Shown: positions 49,512-58,863, counted from the stretch's first letter. The stretch is DNA of 64,000 bases from Calditerrivibrio sp. (GCA_026415135.1 JAOAHS010000035.1:1-64000); one strand, 5' to 3'. The notes: a model not told the origin generated them from the sequence alone. Numbers and translations: made by a program.

Positions 49512-51938
49512 CTAAATAGTGCTACCCATTACCAATTGATCATCTTCGTTTTTGGTGATCACTACCCTTGTTTCGTATTCATCCTTTGTGACCATGAGGG
49601 CATTGCCAATCCTTATCTTTACATCGCTAAACAGATTTCTGCGGATAATGATTATCTCCTTTTGATCGCTCACTAGAAACTCCATATCTGATTGTAAAGA
49701 TTGGAGTTTTTCTTGCAAGATTGCATTCAAACTTTCCAGTTTTTTGAGTTTTTCCACATTAGTCTTATATTCCGTATCAAGAATTGCGTTTTCAAGGGAA
49801 CCATAGCTGGTTATGATCTTTTTAATCTGCAATTTTATCTGACCAATGGATTTGGATATAGTATCTAACTTCTCTAAGGTATCCTGAATCTGTAATTTGA
49901 TACTATTTTTATTGAGTTGATTTATAAAAAGTGACGTTCTTGTGTAGTTTTTAGCACCTGCAATATTGATATCTATCATTCTAGTAGCCTCAATGGTACT
50001 ACCCTGAACCGAACCCACCCCTTTGTAGGAGATAAAATTTTTACAGTTTATTTTGCAATTTCTGGTGTAGTTTGTGATCTCAACAGTATCCCCTGCAATT
50101 ATCTCAGCATCCTGAACAAAATCAGCTTTGACATTTTTCATAGCTTTTATCTTTGTTTGATTTTTACCAAAAACACCTGAGCTGATAATCACAGACCCCC
50201 TCTCCGACTCTATAAAGGCCCCTTCAACAACCCCCTTTATCTTAATATCTCCCCCCGCAAAGACTTTAAAATCAGGTAAAACATCCCCCTTTATCACCAC
50301 ATCACCTTTGTAGTTTATATTTCCAGTAGCAAAATTTACATCCCCATCGATGACTATCATCTCAATTACGTTTACTTTGCCATTGTCATAGTTTACTATG
50401 CCATCGGTTGTGGAAAGCAGCTTAAGACCATCCGAGGAGACATATACATTTTTACCACCCGGTAGTTTTATATCATTACCTGGGGTAGCCTTAATAATGT
50501 TTCCATATACATCGAAGCCATCTATACCCTTAGTTGCTGGTACTTTCAATACGAGGGGATCCCCCTTGTCCACCTGTTGAATAACACTTATATTCCTAAA
50601 ATCGATATTACCCTCTTCATCCTCTTTAGGTTTATACCTATTTTCCTGTTCAAAGAAAAATACCAGATAAGCATCCTCACCCCTCGTGGGTTCAGATCCT
50701 TTTGCTACAAGTGCTATGGCACCTTCAGCCTCAGTGGAGACTTTGGATATATTATCTATCAAATGCCCATGACGAATATTGTTCTTCTTGAGGTAAAAAA
50801 GTACTTCTCTTGGATCAAATCTCTGGGACGTTAGTTTCTTTATGTAACATTCCATATTATCATCCGAGACACTGATATCAAAAGCTGAAAAGATCTTGTT
50901 GTCGATCTTTTTGAAAACTTCACCTATCTCGACCGGTTCACCTGTGGATGAATGTATGGCTGATTGTATCTTCTCTAAATCGTAGTTATAAATATTTTCA
51001 TTTAGTAATCTCTCCTCCAAATCCTTTATATCAATATGGGCAGTAGGATTTGTCTGAATATACATTCTGTTGTTTTGGATGAAAAATCGGTAGGTACTTA
51101 TATCGTACTTTTTATCTTTTATCTTTTCTATAATCTTCTTAAGATCTATAAACAGCTCATTAACTGTCTCATATCTCTGGGCAGGGTTTTTTGACAATGC
51201 CTTGTTTATGATTTTTGCTAAATCAACTTCTACATCGGAATAATAAGCTGGATCTATATAATCAGAGTTTTTTATCTTTAAAATAGTTTCATCATTTAAT
51301 GTATCACCAAAAGGGTGCTCCCTACAAAAGATAAAGTACAAGATACAACCCAGTTGATAGATATCACCTGCAACCGAAGGCTCATAGCTGGAAAAATATT
51401 CAGGAGGCACATAGGGTGGAGGAGAGCTATAGATCCCAAGCTCACTTATAAATGAGTTTTTAGCGATAAAACGCTTAAGATCAAAATTATCTACTTTAAC
51501 AATATCATCAGCATAATATATTGAGTCCACAAAAAGATTTTGATGCAATACCTTAAATGAATGGGCAAAGTCCAAAGCCTCAACAATAGCAGTAGCAATC
51601 TTGAGCTTTTTATTCAAGCTCATATCAAACAATATCTCTTTATTTAAAAAACTATTTTTTATATCGAAATACTCTAATATTTCATAAAGTCTATTTGCTT
51701 CATCCACATGGTAATCTATTACATTCAAGATATTCTTATGGGTTAATTTGGAGGCATTGGTGATATGCCTTATGAACCTATTTTGGATGTTTACAGCTTC
51801 TGTTTGTCTAAAGATATCCACAATCCTAATAAGTATATTACGACGGAATTGTGTATCGATTCCCTTGTAAACTTCCCCAGATGGCAGGGAACATAAATGC
51901 TCCCTGATATCATATCTTTTCAAAAAATAGTTATCCAT
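49512..51938 (-). CDS. Pseudokinase fused to FapA (DUF342) domain
   Basis: 808 residues. About 1-275 is a Ser/Thr kinase fold: SGEVYKG, the HRD region replaced by HQN (132-134), DFG replaced by DNF (150-152), the VAIK lysine by Arg38, a PPE motif at 178-180, GDIYQLG at 201 and Arg265 of the C-lobe. So it is probably catalytically dead. About 290-690 is FapA/DUF342, with repeated beta-helix strands such as INYKGDVVIKGDV and IKGVVEGAFIESERGSVIIS. A coiled coil follows about 690-760. FapA proteins are linked to polar flagella, sporulation or surface assembly. The fusion is unusual; see findings. Confidence 0.85.
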   Translation of the reverse strand: MDNYFLKRYDIREHLCSLPSGEVYKGIDTQFRRNILIRIVDIFRQTEAVNIQNRFIRHITNASKLTHKNILNVIDYHVDEANRLYEILEYFDIKNSFLNKEILFDMSLNKKLKIATAIVEALDFAHSFKVLHQNLFVDSIYYADDIVKVDNFDLKRFIAKNSFISELGIYSSPPPYVPPEYFSSYEPSVAGDIYQLGCILYFIFCREHPFGDTLNDETILKIKNSDYIDPAYYSDVEVDLAKIINKALSKNPAQRYETVNELFIDLKKIIEKIKDKKYDISTYRFFIQNNRMYIQTNPTAHIDIKDLEERLLNENIYNYDLEKIQSAIHSSTGEPVEIGEVFKKIDNKIFSAFDISVSDDNMECYIKKLTSQRFDPREVLFYLKKNNIRHGHLIDNISKVSTEAEGAIALVAKGSEPTRGEDAYLVFFFEQENRYKPKEDEEGNIDFRNISVIQQVDKGDPLVLKVPATKGIDGFDVYGNIIKATPGNDIKLPGGKNVYVSSDGLKLLSTTDGIVNYDNGKVNVIEMIVIDGDVNFATGNINYKGDVVIKGDVLPDFKVFAGGDIKIKGVVEGAFIESERGSVIISSGVFGKNQTKIKAMKNVKADFVQDAEIIAGDTVEITNYTRNCKINCKNFISYKGVGSVQGSTIEATRMIDINIAGAKNYTRTSLFINQLNKNSIKLQIQDTLEKLDTISKSIGQIKLQIKKIITSYGSLENAILDTEYKTNVEKLKKLESLNAILQEKLQSLQSDMEFLVSDQKEIIIIRRNLFSDVKIRIGNALMVTKDEYETRVVITKNEDDQLVMGSTI

Positions 51939-52076: not shown

Positions 52077-54410
52077 ATGGGAATTATAGATTTTAACAAT
52101 AGCCGCAAAGAAAGGTTTTTGGCACCCTGCATATTTTTAAGCGGTGATGTAACCGCAGGGATCGAAAGTGAATATCAAACAGCTGTAGAAGGGGATAAAG
52201 AGATTGTTGATCTACCAGTATATTTAAGGAGATCCTCCTACTATTCAAATCTCATAAAAAGAACAAAAAATGGTGAATACCAACCCTACAAACTAAAAGA
52301 GATAGAGGATTACCTAAACGATAACAAAAAAAAGATATGGGAAAACAGTTTTGTCATAATACCCAAAAAACATCTTAATAACTATGTCTTATCACTCATC
52401 GATTACGATATGTTAAGTGATAAAACAGATCCCTCTCTCGGATATAGAAAGGACAAACATCTCTTCGAAACAGTCAACAGAAATGGAGAAAAATGTTTCA
52501 GATTCCCCGTAAGTTATATGCTAAGAATTGCATTAGCAGATTTCATAGGTGAGGTGAAAACCCAAAGCAGTATTGCCGAAAGAGTTGGTAAAAAGTTGTT
52601 AGATCATTTTTCAAACGATAATACCTCTCCTGAAGTAACCTCCTTTTATATCTGCGAAAATATAAAAGAGAACATCGGCGCCCATTTAGCCAAAGAGAAT
52701 GTGAAAAGGTACCTTTTTACACAACTACTAACTGAGTACAGCAATAAAAAGTTCGGACTAATGGACAGCGGTCAAAGGGTCTACGTATACCACTCCCCCT
52801 TAACTCCCACAAGACAACAGAAACTTAATAGTCTGATACCCGACAGTCTCTACAGAGAACTTTTTATAAGCCCATGCCTTGCTGGCTGGAACAGAGGTGA
52901 AGAAAAAAAGAAATACATGGAACTTTGTCACCTTGCCCTATCTAGAAGTCACCTAAACACCCTTGAAAAATTGAAGGATGCTGGTTTAATAAAAAACAAT
53001 CTCATCGTTTTACCAAATACCTCCAACACATCTCTTACCAACAACGGCATCCACATCAGTATTGGGAGCAAATTTCTCACGGATAAGATAAAAAAAGATA
53101 AATCACTGTTCAATCTGTCAGCAGAGAAATATTATTCCGATCTCGTGGTCAAGATTGTGGAACATTTTATCCCCCTTTTAACAGTAACTTACTCCGCATC
53201 AGTCTACAGAATCCCATTTCATAAAATACATCCGGAGACCATATTAGGCTTTTTACCCCATGAGCTTGACTTCACCCATCTAAGGATGATTTACCGCAGA
53301 TGGATAAAAAAAGTTCATAACAAGCGTTTTGGACATCGATTTATGCCAAAAGGTCCCCTCTGGTGGGATATGATCCTTGAAAAAGGGCTAATGCTTAAAG
53401 GGGACTATTTACCTGATTTTAGGGTGTTGGATTATTTTGTATCCATTCTTAGCACAGAGACCGCTTCTGGGCTCGATGGAAAACTCAACAACCAACAATT
53501 ATTAAAAAAAGAACTCCATGAGATGGGCATATTCGATGAAAGGCTTTCCTTTTATGCTCTTTATAGGGGAAGATACGTAGAAAATAATGGTTATAGTGGG
53601 TTTGAAGGGAGATTTTATAGCTGTTTTTACAACCTTTTCGATGATACCAAACACTGTACCAACCTGCAAACCCTTTTTACAGCCCTTGCCTATAAATATA
53701 TCATGTCTGGCAAACTTACCCATCAAGATATTCCGGACACCCCTCACATCGAAAGTGAACGAAGACAGATCTTTTTTGCAACAGCTATTGGGCTACCTAC
53801 CGTATACATAAAAAGCGATACAAAAAACAGCTTTATGCTTTATATCCTCTCCCACTGCGAAAAGATTAGAAACAGCAGAAGATACCCCGGTTATCTTCGG
53901 TTAGAGATAAAAGATTACATGTCAGCTCTATTAAAAATAATAAACAAAGATGCCATCGATATAGCTGAAAATCTCTCAATAATAGATAGCCTCAATGATC
54001 TTAAGATCAGAATAAAAAATGAAAAAGAAACAAATGCATATAAAATTTCAAGAAGTATTACAGCACAACATAATAAAAAATCCCCATTAGATATAAACAG
54101 TGATATTTTCAACAGCGAAATAGAGGAGTTTTATCGCAATCAGCTCCGCTTAAAGCACATAGAGGAAGGGTTTGAGATATTAAAGAATGACATCCTTAAA
54201 AAAATTAAAGAAGGTCTTATCACCAATTATCATACAAAAGATCTCTATCTTTTTGATGAACTTGATAATCTTCTACAAAGAGCTAAAAATAGATTCAACA
54301 ACGGAATACTAACCCTTGAAGATATTACAAAACTACTTTCAATAATGCTCATCGATATCAGTGTCGAAATGGGTTATGGAGGTAAAAATTGCGCAGACAT
54401 TGCTTTATAG
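52077..54410 (+). CDS. Large uncharacterised protein before psd paralogue
   Basis: 777 residues, not recognised. The composition is Lys/Asn/Leu rich and soluble, with no signal peptide or membrane helix. FLSGDVTAGIESEYQTAVEG near residue 20-40 and the conserved-looking TVTYSASVYRIPFHKIHPETILGFLPHELDFTHLRMIYRRW in the middle are the most patterned parts; the GIESEY motif faintly resembles the metal-binding glutamates of glutamate-cysteine ligases, but this is too weak to assign. The C-terminal 150 residues look helical. RBS GAGGTG. It overlaps the next gene by 22 bases, so products are probably needed together. Confidence 0.8.
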   Translation: MGIIDFNNSRKERFLAPCIFLSGDVTAGIESEYQTAVEGDKEIVDLPVYLRRSSYYSNLIKRTKNGEYQPYKLKEIEDYLNDNKKKIWENSFVIIPKKHLNNYVLSLIDYDMLSDKTDPSLGYRKDKHLFETVNRNGEKCFRFPVSYMLRIALADFIGEVKTQSSIAERVGKKLLDHFSNDNTSPEVTSFYICENIKENIGAHLAKENVKRYLFTQLLTEYSNKKFGLMDSGQRVYVYHSPLTPTRQQKLNSLIPDSLYRELFISPCLAGWNRGEEKKKYMELCHLALSRSHLNTLEKLKDAGLIKNNLIVLPNTSNTSLTNNGIHISIGSKFLTDKIKKDKSLFNLSAEKYYSDLVVKIVEHFIPLLTVTYSASVYRIPFHKIHPETILGFLPHELDFTHLRMIYRRWIKKVHNKRFGHRFMPKGPLWWDMILEKGLMLKGDYLPDFRVLDYFVSILSTETASGLDGKLNNQQLLKKELHEMGIFDERLSFYALYRGRYVENNGYSGFEGRFYSCFYNLFDDTKHCTNLQTLFTALAYKYIMSGKLTHQDIPDTPHIESERRQIFFATAIGLPTVYIKSDTKNSFMLYILSHCEKIRNSRRYPGYLRLEIKDYMSALLKIINKDAIDIAENLSIIDSLNDLKIRIKNEKETNAYKISRSITAQHNKKSPLDINSDIFNSEIEEFYRNQLRLKHIEEGFEILKNDILKKIKEGLITNYHTKDLYLFDELDNLLQRAKNRFNNGILTLEDITKLLSIMLIDISVEMGYGGKNCADIAL

Positions 54411-55387
54411 ATAGAAGATCTGGCAAAATGATAGAAGAAAAGCCTTTAGGTGACAAACTCATACATTTTTTATACTCTTCTGTTCGAGAAAAAGCACCCT
54501 TTATCTTTAACTTAGCCATAAGTAAACATACAACGAAACTCCTAAAATACATAAAGTACAATAAAAGCCTAACCAACAATGAGTTTTTAGAATATTGCAA
54601 TAGCCTAAATATAGATACTAGTGAATTATACGAGGTAGAAAAGATCAAAACCATCGAAGACCTTTTCATGAGAAAGATCAGATACTGGGAAACAAGACCT
54701 ATGGATGAAGACATTAACATAATCGTTTCCCCTGCAGACTCTAAAATGGTGGTTGGTTCCCTCTACGATGATCCTTTACTATTGCTAAAAAACAAGTTCT
54801 TCACCATAGAAGAACTACTCTACAAAATAGAATGGATAAAAACCTTCGCTGATGCAGACTATGCCATCTTTAGACTTACCCCAGATGAATATCATTATAA
54901 TCATCTACCGGTATCAGGAGTTGTTCTTGATCACTACGAACTTGACGGAGTGTACCACTCATGTAACCCAGAAGCAACAGTTGCCGTTTATACCCCACTA
55001 TCCAAAAATAGAAGAGTCGTCACAATCATCGACACAGATGTCCCAAACGGTAGTGGTGTAGGTATTGTAGCATTCATCGAAGTGGTCGCCATGATGATAG
55101 GTCAGATATGTCAAGCCTATTCAGAAGTCAAATACGATGATCCTAAACCTTTAACTACAGGGCAATTTGTCAAAAAGGGCCAACCCAAATCGGTCTACAA
55201 ACCGGGTAGCAGCACAGATCTTGTCCTTTTTGAAAAGGGGAGGGTAACTTTCGATGAGGATATCCTCTTACAAACAAGAAGAAGCGATGTGGATAGCAGA
55301 TACTCTATGGGTTTTAAACAGCCTTTAGTTGAGGTTAGAGTTAGAGTTAGAGAAAGGATCGCTACCAATACTAAAAGCAAACATTAA
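54389..55387 (+). CDS. Phosphatidylserine decarboxylase family protein
   Basis: 332 residues. The TTG start at 54389 has GGAGG six bases upstream, and the segment RRHCFIDRRSGKMIEEKPLGDKLIHFLY matches the usual N-terminus. FRLTPDEYHYNHLPVSG keeps the catalytic His. The self-cleavage motif is GSST in YKPGSSTDLVLF rather than the usual LGST/FGST, so the pyruvoyl precursor Ser may be retained but the preceding residue is Pro. The VGA strand reads IEVVAMMIG. It may be a PSD with a different substrate. It is flanked by an unknown protein and an Lgt-like protein. Confidence 0.85.
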   Translation: MRRHCFIDRRSGKMIEEKPLGDKLIHFLYSSVREKAPFIFNLAISKHTTKLLKYIKYNKSLTNNEFLEYCNSLNIDTSELYEVEKIKTIEDLFMRKIRYWETRPMDEDINIIVSPADSKMVVGSLYDDPLLLLKNKFFTIEELLYKIEWIKTFADADYAIFRLTPDEYHYNHLPVSGVVLDHYELDGVYHSCNPEATVAVYTPLSKNRRVVTIIDTDVPNGSGVGIVAFIEVVAMMIGQICQAYSEVKYDDPKPLTTGQFVKKGQPKSVYKPGSSTDLVLFEKGRVTFDEDILLQTRRSDVDSRYSMGFKQPLVEVRVRVRERIATNTKSKH

Positions 55388-55402
55388 TAAGGAGTTTTTA
55401 TT

Positions 55403-56464
55403 ATGGAAAAACTTTTTTTAGCTGTGTTAGCTTTATTTTTAACAATATTATCCTATATCGGAATAAAATATTTTCCCCATGAGAGATTTCAATTCCTATT
55501 TGCATTCCCCTACAAGAAACTTTCAAACGGCAGTTGGCTATCGTTAAATATCACCTTTTATGGCCTTTTTAATGCTATAGCTTATACGACCGGTTCCCTC
55601 TTGGGGGTAATCCTCATGCTCTCTGTTGGTCTTAAACCGATACAGATACTCGTTACCCTTTTTCTGATATTTGTCATCTGTATCCCTGCATCAAAACTAA
55701 TTGCCAAAAGTATAGAGAAATCAAAATCTGGATTCACCGTAGGTGGTGCTGTTTTCGTAGGTGTTTTGATAAGCCCCGTCGCAGTTTTTGTAGCTAGCCT
55801 GTATGGTGATTGGAACTGGGCTCAAATGCTACTTCCTACAATCTCCTCCATGGCGATAGCTTACGCAGTCGGTGAAGGTATAGGTAGACTCGGCTGTTTG
55901 AGCTTTGGATGCTGTTATGGCAAGGCTGTAGATGATATCAACCATCCTTTGCTTAGATCTTTTTTTGAAAGATTTTATACAATCTACACAGGTCGATATA
56001 AGAAAGCCTCCTACTCATCAAATCTTTGTAACAAAAAAACAGTACCTGTTCAAGCTGCGGCCAACATTATCTATTCCATTGTAGCTTTTTTATCCATAAT
56101 TGCCTACATCTATGGCTTTTTTGTTTTATCCACACTTTTAGTAACCTATACCACCCAGCTTTATAGATTCTTTTCTGAGTTTTTAAGAGCTGACTATAGG
56201 GGTGAAGGGAGAATATCCACCTATCAGAAGATGGCTTTACTGAACATGTTGATTATTTCTTTTTATGTTTTTTTAGTTAATGCAGACAACCCCAAACCGG
56301 ATATAAACAATGCCTTAGACCAACTATCCAATGGATGGTTTATACTGAGCTTGATCATTATTTTCTGTACAACCCTTGTTTATACTGGCGTGAGTACAGC
56401 TACCTACAGCATAATAAACTTTAGGCTTTCCAGCAAAGCGATTCAGCCAGCAAAGCCAGAATAG
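55403..56464 (+). CDS. Prolipoprotein diacylglyceryl transferase-like membrane protein
   Basis: 353 residues, about seven membrane helices. YAVGEGIGRLGCLSFGCCYGK and LYRFFSEFLRADYRGEGR match the Lgt family core arginine and glutamate segments, but the usual GRIGNF is GRLGCL with a Cys pair (GCC), and a long lumenal insertion (KASYSSNLCNKKTVPVQ) follows. The true lgt is not in the window, so this may be a paralogue. AAGGAG lies eight bases before the ATG and 15 after the PSD gene. Confidence 0.8.
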   Translation: MEKLFLAVLALFLTILSYIGIKYFPHERFQFLFAFPYKKLSNGSWLSLNITFYGLFNAIAYTTGSLLGVILMLSVGLKPIQILVTLFLIFVICIPASKLIAKSIEKSKSGFTVGGAVFVGVLISPVAVFVASLYGDWNWAQMLLPTISSMAIAYAVGEGIGRLGCLSFGCCYGKAVDDINHPLLRSFFERFYTIYTGRYKKASYSSNLCNKKTVPVQAAANIIYSIVAFLSIIAYIYGFFVLSTLLVTYTTQLYRFFSEFLRADYRGEGRISTYQKMALLNMLIISFYVFLVNADNPKPDINNALDQLSNGWFILSLIIIFCTTLVYTGVSTATYSIINFRLSSKAIQPAKPE

Positions 56465-57105
56465 AAATAGTTACCAAAACCGATCGTATAAAGGATCAAC
56501 CCGTATAAAAGATGCTCTAAATAGACTAAAGGTAGTGATCTTGTTCTTACATAAGTAAAAGAGAATATGTACCCACCCAAAAGGGAAAGTAGCACTGAAA
56601 AAGGATTAAGATATATTACATGTCCAAAAGCAAAGGCAAAGGCACTCAGATGTATTAGCCCCTTTTCCTCTTTTACGAGCGGTGCATATCTGTGAAATAT
56701 AAGTGCCCTGTATATAATCTCCTGGGGGTATACCGCAAGAAAGGTATATATAAGTATAATGTTCACCCATAGGAAGATATCTTTTCTTATGAAAAAAAAT
56801 AGGTATTTGGGGGTAAAATGGGCAATAAAGTAATAAAGCAAACCAGCAAATAGCACAACCTGTATTAAGATCCTAGCATACTCGAGGGTAAGAGGTGGAA
56901 GTCTATAAAATATCTTTTTGTCGAAGTGTTCATCATTGTATAATAGATAAAAAGCAATCATTCCACCCAACAATATGAAAGGTAGCGGTGTAACCTTTAC
57001 TAAAAGAGCCATACCAACGGGTGCACATAAAAATATCAGAAAATACTCCAGCCACAAGTACCCCAGATTTTGTAAAGACAACACCTTTTCATTCAGCTTT
57101 TTCAT
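56443..57105 (-). CDS. CPBP family intramembrane metalloprotease-like protein
   Basis: 220 residues, about seven membrane helices. The CPBP motifs are PQEIIYRALIF, where the usual EExxxR has Gln in place of the first Glu, FAFGHVIYLNP (FxxxH) and YLEHLLYGLILY. CPBP (Abi/Rce1) proteins are membrane proteases or regulators. The 3' end overlaps the Lgt-like gene by 22 bases on the opposite strand. No ribosome site precedes the ATG. The Gln substitution may remove activity. Confidence 0.8.
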   Translation of the reverse strand: MKKLNEKVLSLQNLGYLWLEYFLIFLCAPVGMALLVKVTPLPFILLGGMIAFYLLYNDEHFDKKIFYRLPPLTLEYARILIQVVLFAGLLYYFIAHFTPKYLFFFIRKDIFLWVNIILIYTFLAVYPQEIIYRALIFHRYAPLVKEEKGLIHLSAFAFAFGHVIYLNPFSVLLSLLGGYIFSFTYVRTRSLPLVYLEHLLYGLILYTIGFGNYFYSGFAG

Positions 57106-57318: not shown

Positions 57319-58863
57319 ATGAAAAGACGGGAATTTCTAAAAGCATCAGGCTTTGCAATCGCAGCTTTAGCAACAAGCAAAGAGCTCTTTGCCAAAAAGA
57401 TGGAACCATCAAGAGGACAAGGCATTATCTTTATGGTAGGGGACGGTATGCCACTTGGTGTCATGAAGGGTATGCAAACTATCTTCTCCAAAGAGCTTAG
57501 CTACAATTCAAAGATCTATGAATTGCTAAAAGATCCTAAAGCTGTATTAGCCCTTCAAAACACAAGCTCCCTTTCCAGCGTTGTAACCGATTCTGCACCT
57601 GCATCTGTTGCGTGGAGCACAGGATCTAAAACCCTTAATAGAGTCTTATCCACTTTGCCAGATGGTAGGAATCTCAAAACGATTTTGGAGCTGGCAAAGG
57701 AAAACGGCTTGTCCTGTGGGGTAGTAACCACCACAAGATTGACACACGCAACACCAGCCGCCTGGTATTCCCATAATCAGAACAGGGATAATGAGGATGA
57801 TATAGCCATCGATCTTTTAAAACTACAGCTTGATGTTGCACTCGGAGGTGGTGATAGACATTTTTCACCTGAGGGAAGAAAGGATAAAAAGGACCTTTAT
57901 GCAGAGTTCATGGCAAAAGGTTATGATGTAGTAAAAAACAGGGAAAGCCTAAAAGAGAAGCTTTACAGCAATAGACCATTACTTGGTGTTTTCAGTTCAT
58001 CCCATATCAGTTACTATGTGGACAGGGTTAATGATAAAAATATTGCTTCAACCCAACCAGATTTGCCAGAAATGACCATTGCCGCATTAAATAGATTATC
58101 AAAAAACCCAAAAGGGTTCATCCTTCAAATCGAAGCAGGCAGAATCGATCACGCTTCCCATGCCAACGATGCCTGGAGTGCGATGATGGACTGTTATGAA
58201 TTTGATAAAACTGTCGAAGTAGTACTTGATTTTATCAAAAAGAACCCCAGAACACTGCTCATAATAACCTCTGATCACGGTAACTCTGGATGGGGTATCA
58301 ATGGCACCGGCCCAGAGTACAATGACTCCACCGAAGGATTATTTTTTTATAAACAAAACAAGGCCTCCTTTGAGTACATGATAAAACTGATGAAGAAACA
58401 GGACCAAAAATCAATAAAGGAGATCTTTGAACAGTATACCTCCACCAAAATCTCCCCAGAAGAAGCTGATGCCATCTTCAAAGGTCTTAATGAAAAAAAA
58501 GAATACACAATAAACGATATTTGGTATGAACCAGAAGCAACTATGGGTAGAATATTAGCCCACAGCAAATATCAGTCCTCAGGGGAAAAATTATCAAAAC
58601 CAGCTATTTCTAGAAGGGGGAATGTAAACTGGACATCCACCAACCATACCGCAGAAGACCAGATCGTTATCGCCTATGGGCATAAAGCCCATGAACTGGG
58701 AATTAAAAGTTATATTGACAACACCGATCTTTATTTTGCCATGTCAAAATTTTTAGGTCTCAAATACAAAAACCCAGTCATGACCGAAGAGGAAGCAAGG
58801 TCTTACCTAAAATCTATTTCCATGAAAGAGTGGATGGAGCATCTTAAACTGCATATCTCCTGA
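57319..58863 (+). CDS. Secreted alkaline phosphatase, Tat-exported
   Basis: 514 residues. Twin-arginine-type signal MKRREFLKASGFAIAALATSK. Metal and nucleophile motifs are MVGDGMPLGVM, VTDSAPASVAWSTG with the nucleophile serine, QIEAGRIDHASHANDA and ITSDHGN, and HTAEDQI near the end: the PhoA-type zinc/magnesium enzyme fold. It should release phosphate from esters in the periplasm. RBS AAAGGAGGTG is very strong. A possible Pho box lies about 150 bases upstream. Confidence 0.94.
   Translation: MKRREFLKASGFAIAALATSKELFAKKMEPSRGQGIIFMVGDGMPLGVMKGMQTIFSKELSYNSKIYELLKDPKAVLALQNTSSLSSVVTDSAPASVAWSTGSKTLNRVLSTLPDGRNLKTILELAKENGLSCGVVTTTRLTHATPAAWYSHNQNRDNEDDIAIDLLKLQLDVALGGGDRHFSPEGRKDKKDLYAEFMAKGYDVVKNRESLKEKLYSNRPLLGVFSSSHISYYVDRVNDKNIASTQPDLPEMTIAALNRLSKNPKGFILQIEAGRIDHASHANDAWSAMMDCYEFDKTVEVVLDFIKKNPRTLLIITSDHGNSGWGINGTGPEYNDSTEGLFFYKQNKASFEYMIKLMKKQDQKSIKEIFEQYTSTKISPEEADAIFKGLNEKKEYTINDIWYEPEATMGRILAHSKYQSSGEKLSKPAISRRGNVNWTSTNHTAEDQIVIAYGHKAHELGIKSYIDNTDLYFAMSKFLGLKYKNPVMTEEEARSYLKSISMKEWMEHLKLHIS

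Follow-up and report, generated by a model that had tools for sequence, protein, structure and literature searches.

What do a phosphatidylserine decarboxylase (PSD) paralogue and an Lgt-like membrane protein make when they are encoded directly behind a protein of no recognised family? The arrangement occurs in a 64,000-nucleotide stretch of DNA from Calditerrivibrio sp. (GCA_026415135.1, JAOAHS010000035.1:1-64000; hereafter the window), in which the three genes follow one another on the same strand (Table 1; the first gene product is called P1). A preliminary description of the window had assigned the trio to a pathway of its own for a lipid or lipid anchor, apart from the usual synthesis of phosphatidylethanolamine (PE) and lipoproteins. 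Our analysis supports that reading, since the source genome has a separate psd and a separate lgt and the trio is conserved across phyla, and we consider it likely that the trio makes a special lipid. A literature search for the combination of P1, PSD and Lgt-like gene found nothing.

Table 1. Features of the trio and its downstream flank, in window coordinates
Feature	Position	Strand	Remarks
P1 gene	52077..54410	+	777 aa; predicted GCS/YbdK/PafA-fold carboxylate-amine ligase, new family
P1 GIESE (GxExE), residues 28-32	52158..52172	+	30/30 relatives; strand 25-32 of model; expected metal-binding glutamates, first strand
P1 NNGIHISIGS, residues 322-331	53040..53069	+	30/30 relatives; strand 325-331; counterpart of GCS2 GxHxxxG
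P1 GFEGR, residues 508-512	53598..53612	+	30/30 relatives; strand 508-514; counterpart of GCS2 ExR motif
GGAGG ribosome-binding site of PSD gene, within P1	54378..54382	+	read directly; 6 bases ahead of TTG
PSD paralogue (pyruvoyl-dependent decarboxylase)	54389..55387	+	332 aa; TTG start; PF02666 7.5e-35
PSD Ser274-Ser275 of GSST	55208..55213	+	in register with LGST; putative self-cleavage site and pyruvoyl serine
Lgt-like integral membrane protein	55403..56464	+	353 aa; PF01790 3.2e-9; putative thioether diacylglyceryl transferase
Lgt-like signature GRLGCLSFGCCYG	55883..55921	+	in place of Lgt GRxGNFxNxE; 22/22 relatives
CPBP/Rce1-like membrane protein	56443..57105	-	PF02517; outside core
Alkaline phosphatase, Tat-like signal peptide	57319..58863	+	PF00245

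Layout and conservation of the trio

The gene layout given earlier proved exact to the base: the three ORFs, the 22-base overlap of the P1 and PSD genes (54389-54410), the TTG start of the latter with its GGAGG site, and the gap of 15 bases between the PSD and Lgt-like genes. An amino-terminal HCYIER segment common to relatives confirms the TTG start: the homologous proteins open with MQHCYIER in L009 and with MQKHCYIER in L011/L027, and the counterpart here is MRRHCFIDR.

Searching 84,980 species genomes with a P1 profile found 30 P1 loci, in Desulfobacterota, Deferribacterota, Nitrospirota, Nitrospinota, SAR324, Methylomirabilota, Acidobacteriota and Gammaproteobacteria. Because this search picks up fairly close relatives only, the distribution is a lower bound. 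The PSD gene comes next in all 26 relatives that have a full-length P1 and sufficient downstream sequence, and the Lgt-like gene is third in 23 of 23 with still longer downstream sequence. Conservation as a unit, which the preliminary description had left to be looked for, thus extends in one constant order (P1-PSD-LGT) to 23 further loci from about eight phyla. The three proteins also have correlated distance matrices (r 0.57-0.70; permutation p < 0.0005, with 0 of 2000 permutations reaching the observed values). The linkage of the trio is real and not a matter of chance.

Where P1 is truncated (L014, L041 and L043), neither PSD nor Lgt-like gene is left in the locus. In the Calditerrivibrio MAG ZAV-05 (L010/L014), P1 stops at residue 686, and EAL-domain genes follow in place of the other two, which is decay or rearrangement of the module; the same-genus comparison genome (G003) was the Calditerrivibrio nitroreducens MAG PNIN01000074. 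Just 4 of the 51 genomes of the source genome's phylum have P1, and this patchy spread suggests that P1 was acquired by transfer or lost repeatedly. No P1 was found on viral contigs or plasmids.

Elsewhere the source genome has a canonical lgt, whose product carries HGG and GRFGNFANGE, and a short psd that neighbours a CDP-alcohol phosphatidyltransferase gene, which makes the PSD and Lgt of the trio additional copies. The same is true of nearly all other trio genomes, so that the true psd and lgt genes that the preliminary description had suggested seeking are indeed present: at least one further psd occurs in 17 of 20, and a further, far higher-scoring lgt in 18 of 20. The assemblies of the exceptions may be incomplete.

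Predicted fold and motifs of P1

P1 has no significant sequence match in Pfam, NCBIfam or the PDB. Two candidate relationships were discarded: a primase-related (PriX) match is weak and confined to one of 30 members, and a NifB-like local match among PDB sequences (E 2.5 over 30 residues) is attributable to chance. An AlphaFold (AF2) model built from 30 relatives reached a pLDDT of 88 and a pTM of 0.91. When it was compared with the PDB by Foldseek, ranks 1 to 11 were occupied throughout by gamma-glutamylcysteine synthetases (GCS), bifunctional glutathione synthetases or the Pup ligase PafA, nine at probabilities of 0.99-1.00 and two PafA chains at 0.90-0.93. Dop stood at rank 13, and all remaining matches were of low probability. 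The E-values were modest, the best being 1.9e-3.

Three motifs, in the family-wide forms GxExE, NNGxHxSxGS and GFExR, are retained in 30 of 30 relatives. A profile alignment with YbdK-type GCS2 proteins pairs GIESEYQT with GIEEEFQT, NNGIHISIGS with FGLHVHIGM and GFEGR with LEVR, in sequential order, and GIESE was also aligned with the GxETE of the Pup-ligase profile. The scores against GCS2 and PafA profiles barely exceed those of shuffled sequences (0-4 of 60 shuffles reach the same score), and PF04107, PF04262 and PF03136 gave no match among the 30 P1 members at E 0.1. As the profile score is marginal by itself, the argument for P1 rests on its fold and the register of its motifs. With GCS and PafA as fold neighbours, and with the motifs kept in 30 relatives, P1 is well supported as a predicted new family of carboxylate-amine ligases with the GCS fold. 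Structure prediction of the 777-residue protein, which had been proposed at the outset, points in this way to a gamma-glutamylcysteine-synthetase-fold ligase that would be the key to the chemistry of the trio.

P1 shares with GCS and YbdK (PF04262, PF04107) and with PafA and Dop (PF03136) the fold and the same order of GxExE, GxHxxxG and ExR on strands. It differs from them in size (about 777-840 aa against 370-520), in its large insertions and C-terminal helical region, and in its strict linkage to the PSD and Lgt-like genes. Neither of the known glutamate-cysteine ligase families is present in 12 of the 18 trio genomes tested, including the source genome and that of Desulfatibacillum alkenivorans; P1 is therefore the sole candidate found there. 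With this assignment, a widespread protein family that matches no library receives a name that conveys a function.

The PSD paralogue and the Lgt-like protein

The PSD paralogue resembles phosphatidylserine decarboxylases of the PRK00723 type (PF02666) over its full length, with 138.7 bits to NF001941, but its scores are far under the NCBIfam equivalog cut-offs and below every one of them. The trio PSDs retain the catalytic Asp, His and Ser, with SP[AC]D in most and YHxxH in 20 of 20. They differ from the PRK00723 type in GSST, with its invariant Ser ahead of the reactive Ser, and in being a second copy in almost all genomes. Since GSST stands in register with LGST, the Ser-Ser pair falls at the putative PSD cleavage site, and a GSST/CSST-type motif, SS[T/V], is found in all 20 trio PSDs. 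The replacement of LGST by GSST that was noticed in the preliminary description is hence genuine and family-wide, but taken alone it proves no new function and is not diagnostic of one, because the canonical psd of the source genome (L012:6606-7232) has FSSR, also with a Ser before the reactive Ser; we take FGSR to be the usual form at this site in the short PSD family. Ser-Ser at the cleavage site is also found in other pyruvoyl enzymes, for example histidine decarboxylase. In view of the FSSR of the canonical psd, GSST was rejected as proof of new chemistry.

For the Lgt-like protein, an AF2 model with a pLDDT of 91 had E. coli Lgt (5azb) as its only high-probability fold match (1.00), and its match to PF01790 is weak (Table 1). 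Besides the fold, it has in common with Lgt the GR of the signature and RxxSExxRxDxRG, which resembles the second arginine region of Lgt. Unlike Lgt, none of the 22 Lgt-like relatives has GRxGNFxNxE or the histidine of HGG, a residue essential in E. coli Lgt, and TVGGAxF stands in the place of the latter. GRxxCxSFGCCYG, with three Cys, is instead invariant in all 22, and a true lgt is found elsewhere in the genome. GRLGC...GCC for GRxGN, first seen in the single sequence from the window, is thus a property of the whole family. Because TVGG and GRxxCxSFGCC replace HGG and GRxGN in 22 of 22 proteins, the Lgt-like enzyme likely acts on an acceptor different from that of Lgt.

A candidate lipid product and its genomic context

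From the folds and conserved motifs we infer the following substrates, order of steps and product. Combined, a GCS-fold ligase, a pyruvoyl decarboxylase and a thioether-forming transferase would make gamma-glutamylcysteine, decarboxylate it and attach diacylglyceryl to its thiol. P1 would spend ATP on an amide bond between the gamma-carboxyl of glutamate and the amine of cysteine, whether the cysteine is free or has been lipidated beforehand. The PSD paralogue would cleave itself at Ser-Ser to form the pyruvoyl group and would then remove the alpha-carboxyl of the gamma-glutamyl residue, leaving a 4-aminobutyryl amide; a pyruvoyl decarboxylase needs a free alpha-amine beside the carboxylate, and the gamma-glutamyl residue would be chosen as the sole amino-acid end that has one. 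With phosphatidylglycerol (PG) as donor, the Lgt-like enzyme would load the cysteine thiol with diacylglyceryl or the corresponding ether group. These steps would yield S-(diacyl/dialkylglyceryl)-N-(4-aminobutyryl)cysteine, with a headgroup of C7H14N2O3S (206.073 Da). We see about an even chance that the trio operon makes such a phosphorus-free, zwitterionic thioether glycerolipid, and we propose that this lipid is the butyramide cysteine glycerol class of sulfate reducers starved of phosphorus.

Ding and colleagues are said to have named butyramide cysteine glycerols in phosphorus-limited D. alkenivorans. Strain DSM 16219 of this species (L022) carries an intact trio. PMC12927429, citing Ding et al. 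2024, reports that non-phosphorus lipids increase in D. alkenivorans under phosphate limitation. Tentatively, we go further and propose that a hitherto undescribed three-enzyme pathway, comprising a GCS-fold ligase, a repurposed PSD and a repurposed Lgt, may place an N-(4-aminobutyryl)cysteine head on glycerol in at least eight phyla and so account for an orphan class of lipids in sulfate reducers that lack phosphorus.

Genes flanking the trio differ among loci, and the three genes therefore appear self-sufficient. An alkaline phosphatase gene is present downstream of the trio in the window. In the sister species it immediately precedes P1, and in L029, a Deltaproteobacteria MAG, it is part of the putative operon; its occurrence beside the trio in two lineages hints at phosphorus stress. 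Scored with a Pho-box matrix, only a few trio promoters have well-scoring Pho-box-like sites, and the same matrix gave no significant Pho box in the window, in L022 or in most other trio promoters.

Other readings of the trio were weighed against this evidence. We regard as unlikely that it modifies an amino-phospholipid, in which case P1 would ligate the amine of phosphatidylserine or PE to a carboxylate such as glutamate, the modified head would be decarboxylated by the PSD paralogue, the Lgt-like enzyme would exchange or scavenge diacylglycerol, and the product would retain phosphorus. PSD is homologous to enzymes acting on phosphatidylserine, with a good PF02666 score, and a lipid amine is conceivable as a substrate of a GCS-fold ligase; such a scheme, however, offers no clear role for a homologue of enzymes that make thioethers from PG, and the three conserved Cys of the Lgt-like motif, together with the alkaline phosphatase neighbours, point elsewhere. 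We assign a small probability to another phosphorus-free or special lipid made by the same enzyme logic, for instance with a different thiol or amino acid replacing cysteine or glutamate. The sequence data do not reveal substrate residues, and the great divergence of P1 from GCS leaves room for this, but the fit of three enzyme chemistries to a lipid reported from a carrier species would then be a coincidence.

Smaller still is the likelihood that the trio builds a peptide or protein lipid anchor, by non-canonical lipoprotein synthesis or Pup-like conjugation, with P1 linking a protein amine to a carboxylate and with diacylglyceryl being added to a cysteine of that protein by the Lgt-like enzyme. 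Although the fold of P1 also resembles that of PafA, and proteins are the normal substrates of Lgt, the variable flanks of the trio contain neither a conserved small protein nor a conserved protease, the pyruvoyl decarboxylase would have no obvious role, and the Lgt histidine, kept by the genome's own Lgt, is absent from all Lgt-like members. That the PSD and Lgt are ordinary, redundant paralogues doing PE and lipoprotein synthesis beside an unrelated protein is scarcely credible despite their membership in PF02666 and PF01790, given a unit whose conservation spans phyla and that coexists with separate psd and lgt genes, and given the replacement of Lgt signature residues in every Lgt-like member.

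A phosphorus-free thioether lipid from the trio would be, like betaine and ornithine lipids, an aminolipid substituting for phospholipids. BtaA/BtaB and OlsB/OlsA constitute the phosphorus-free lipid pathways for betaine and ornithine lipids, respectively; the trio differs from both in its unrelated enzymes and in its linkages, here a predicted thioether formed by the Lgt-like enzyme. In the trio, Lgt and PSD have likely been recruited into a pathway outside lipoprotein and PE synthesis. If the butyramide cysteine product is right, the trio provides the missing genes, so far identified by nobody, for a lipid class that spares phosphorus in anaerobes; these genes could serve as a metagenome marker, and the lipid could be read as a sediment biomarker.

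Several neighbouring genes were considered alongside the trio. The CPBP gene adjoins it in all three Deferribacterales genomes with an intact trio, in differing arrangements; its linkage is limited to that order, and the protease was not accepted as a core member. A large fusion of an amino-terminal PHP phosphoesterase-like region (with no Pfam match there) to a GT4 glycosyltransferase was seen at L009:14139-16472, L024:5903-8779, L026:219-2627 and L035:891-3743. It lies directly upstream of P1 in L024, L026 and L035, which represent three distant lineages, near P1 in the sister species, and on another contig in the source genome. The fusion may belong to lipid remodelling through glycolipid synthesis; it was rejected as an obligate fourth gene, being present in 20 of 51 genomes of the phylum, most of them without P1. 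In three loci from Desulfobacterales (L017:13392-13820, L032:13404-13823 and L042:12844-13242), the gene after the Lgt-like one encodes a small, apparently membrane-bound protein that belongs to no family. Upstream of P1 in the window, positions 49512-51938 on the minus strand encode an unusual architecture, an amino-terminal protein kinase domain fused to a FapA (DUF342) beta-solenoid protein.
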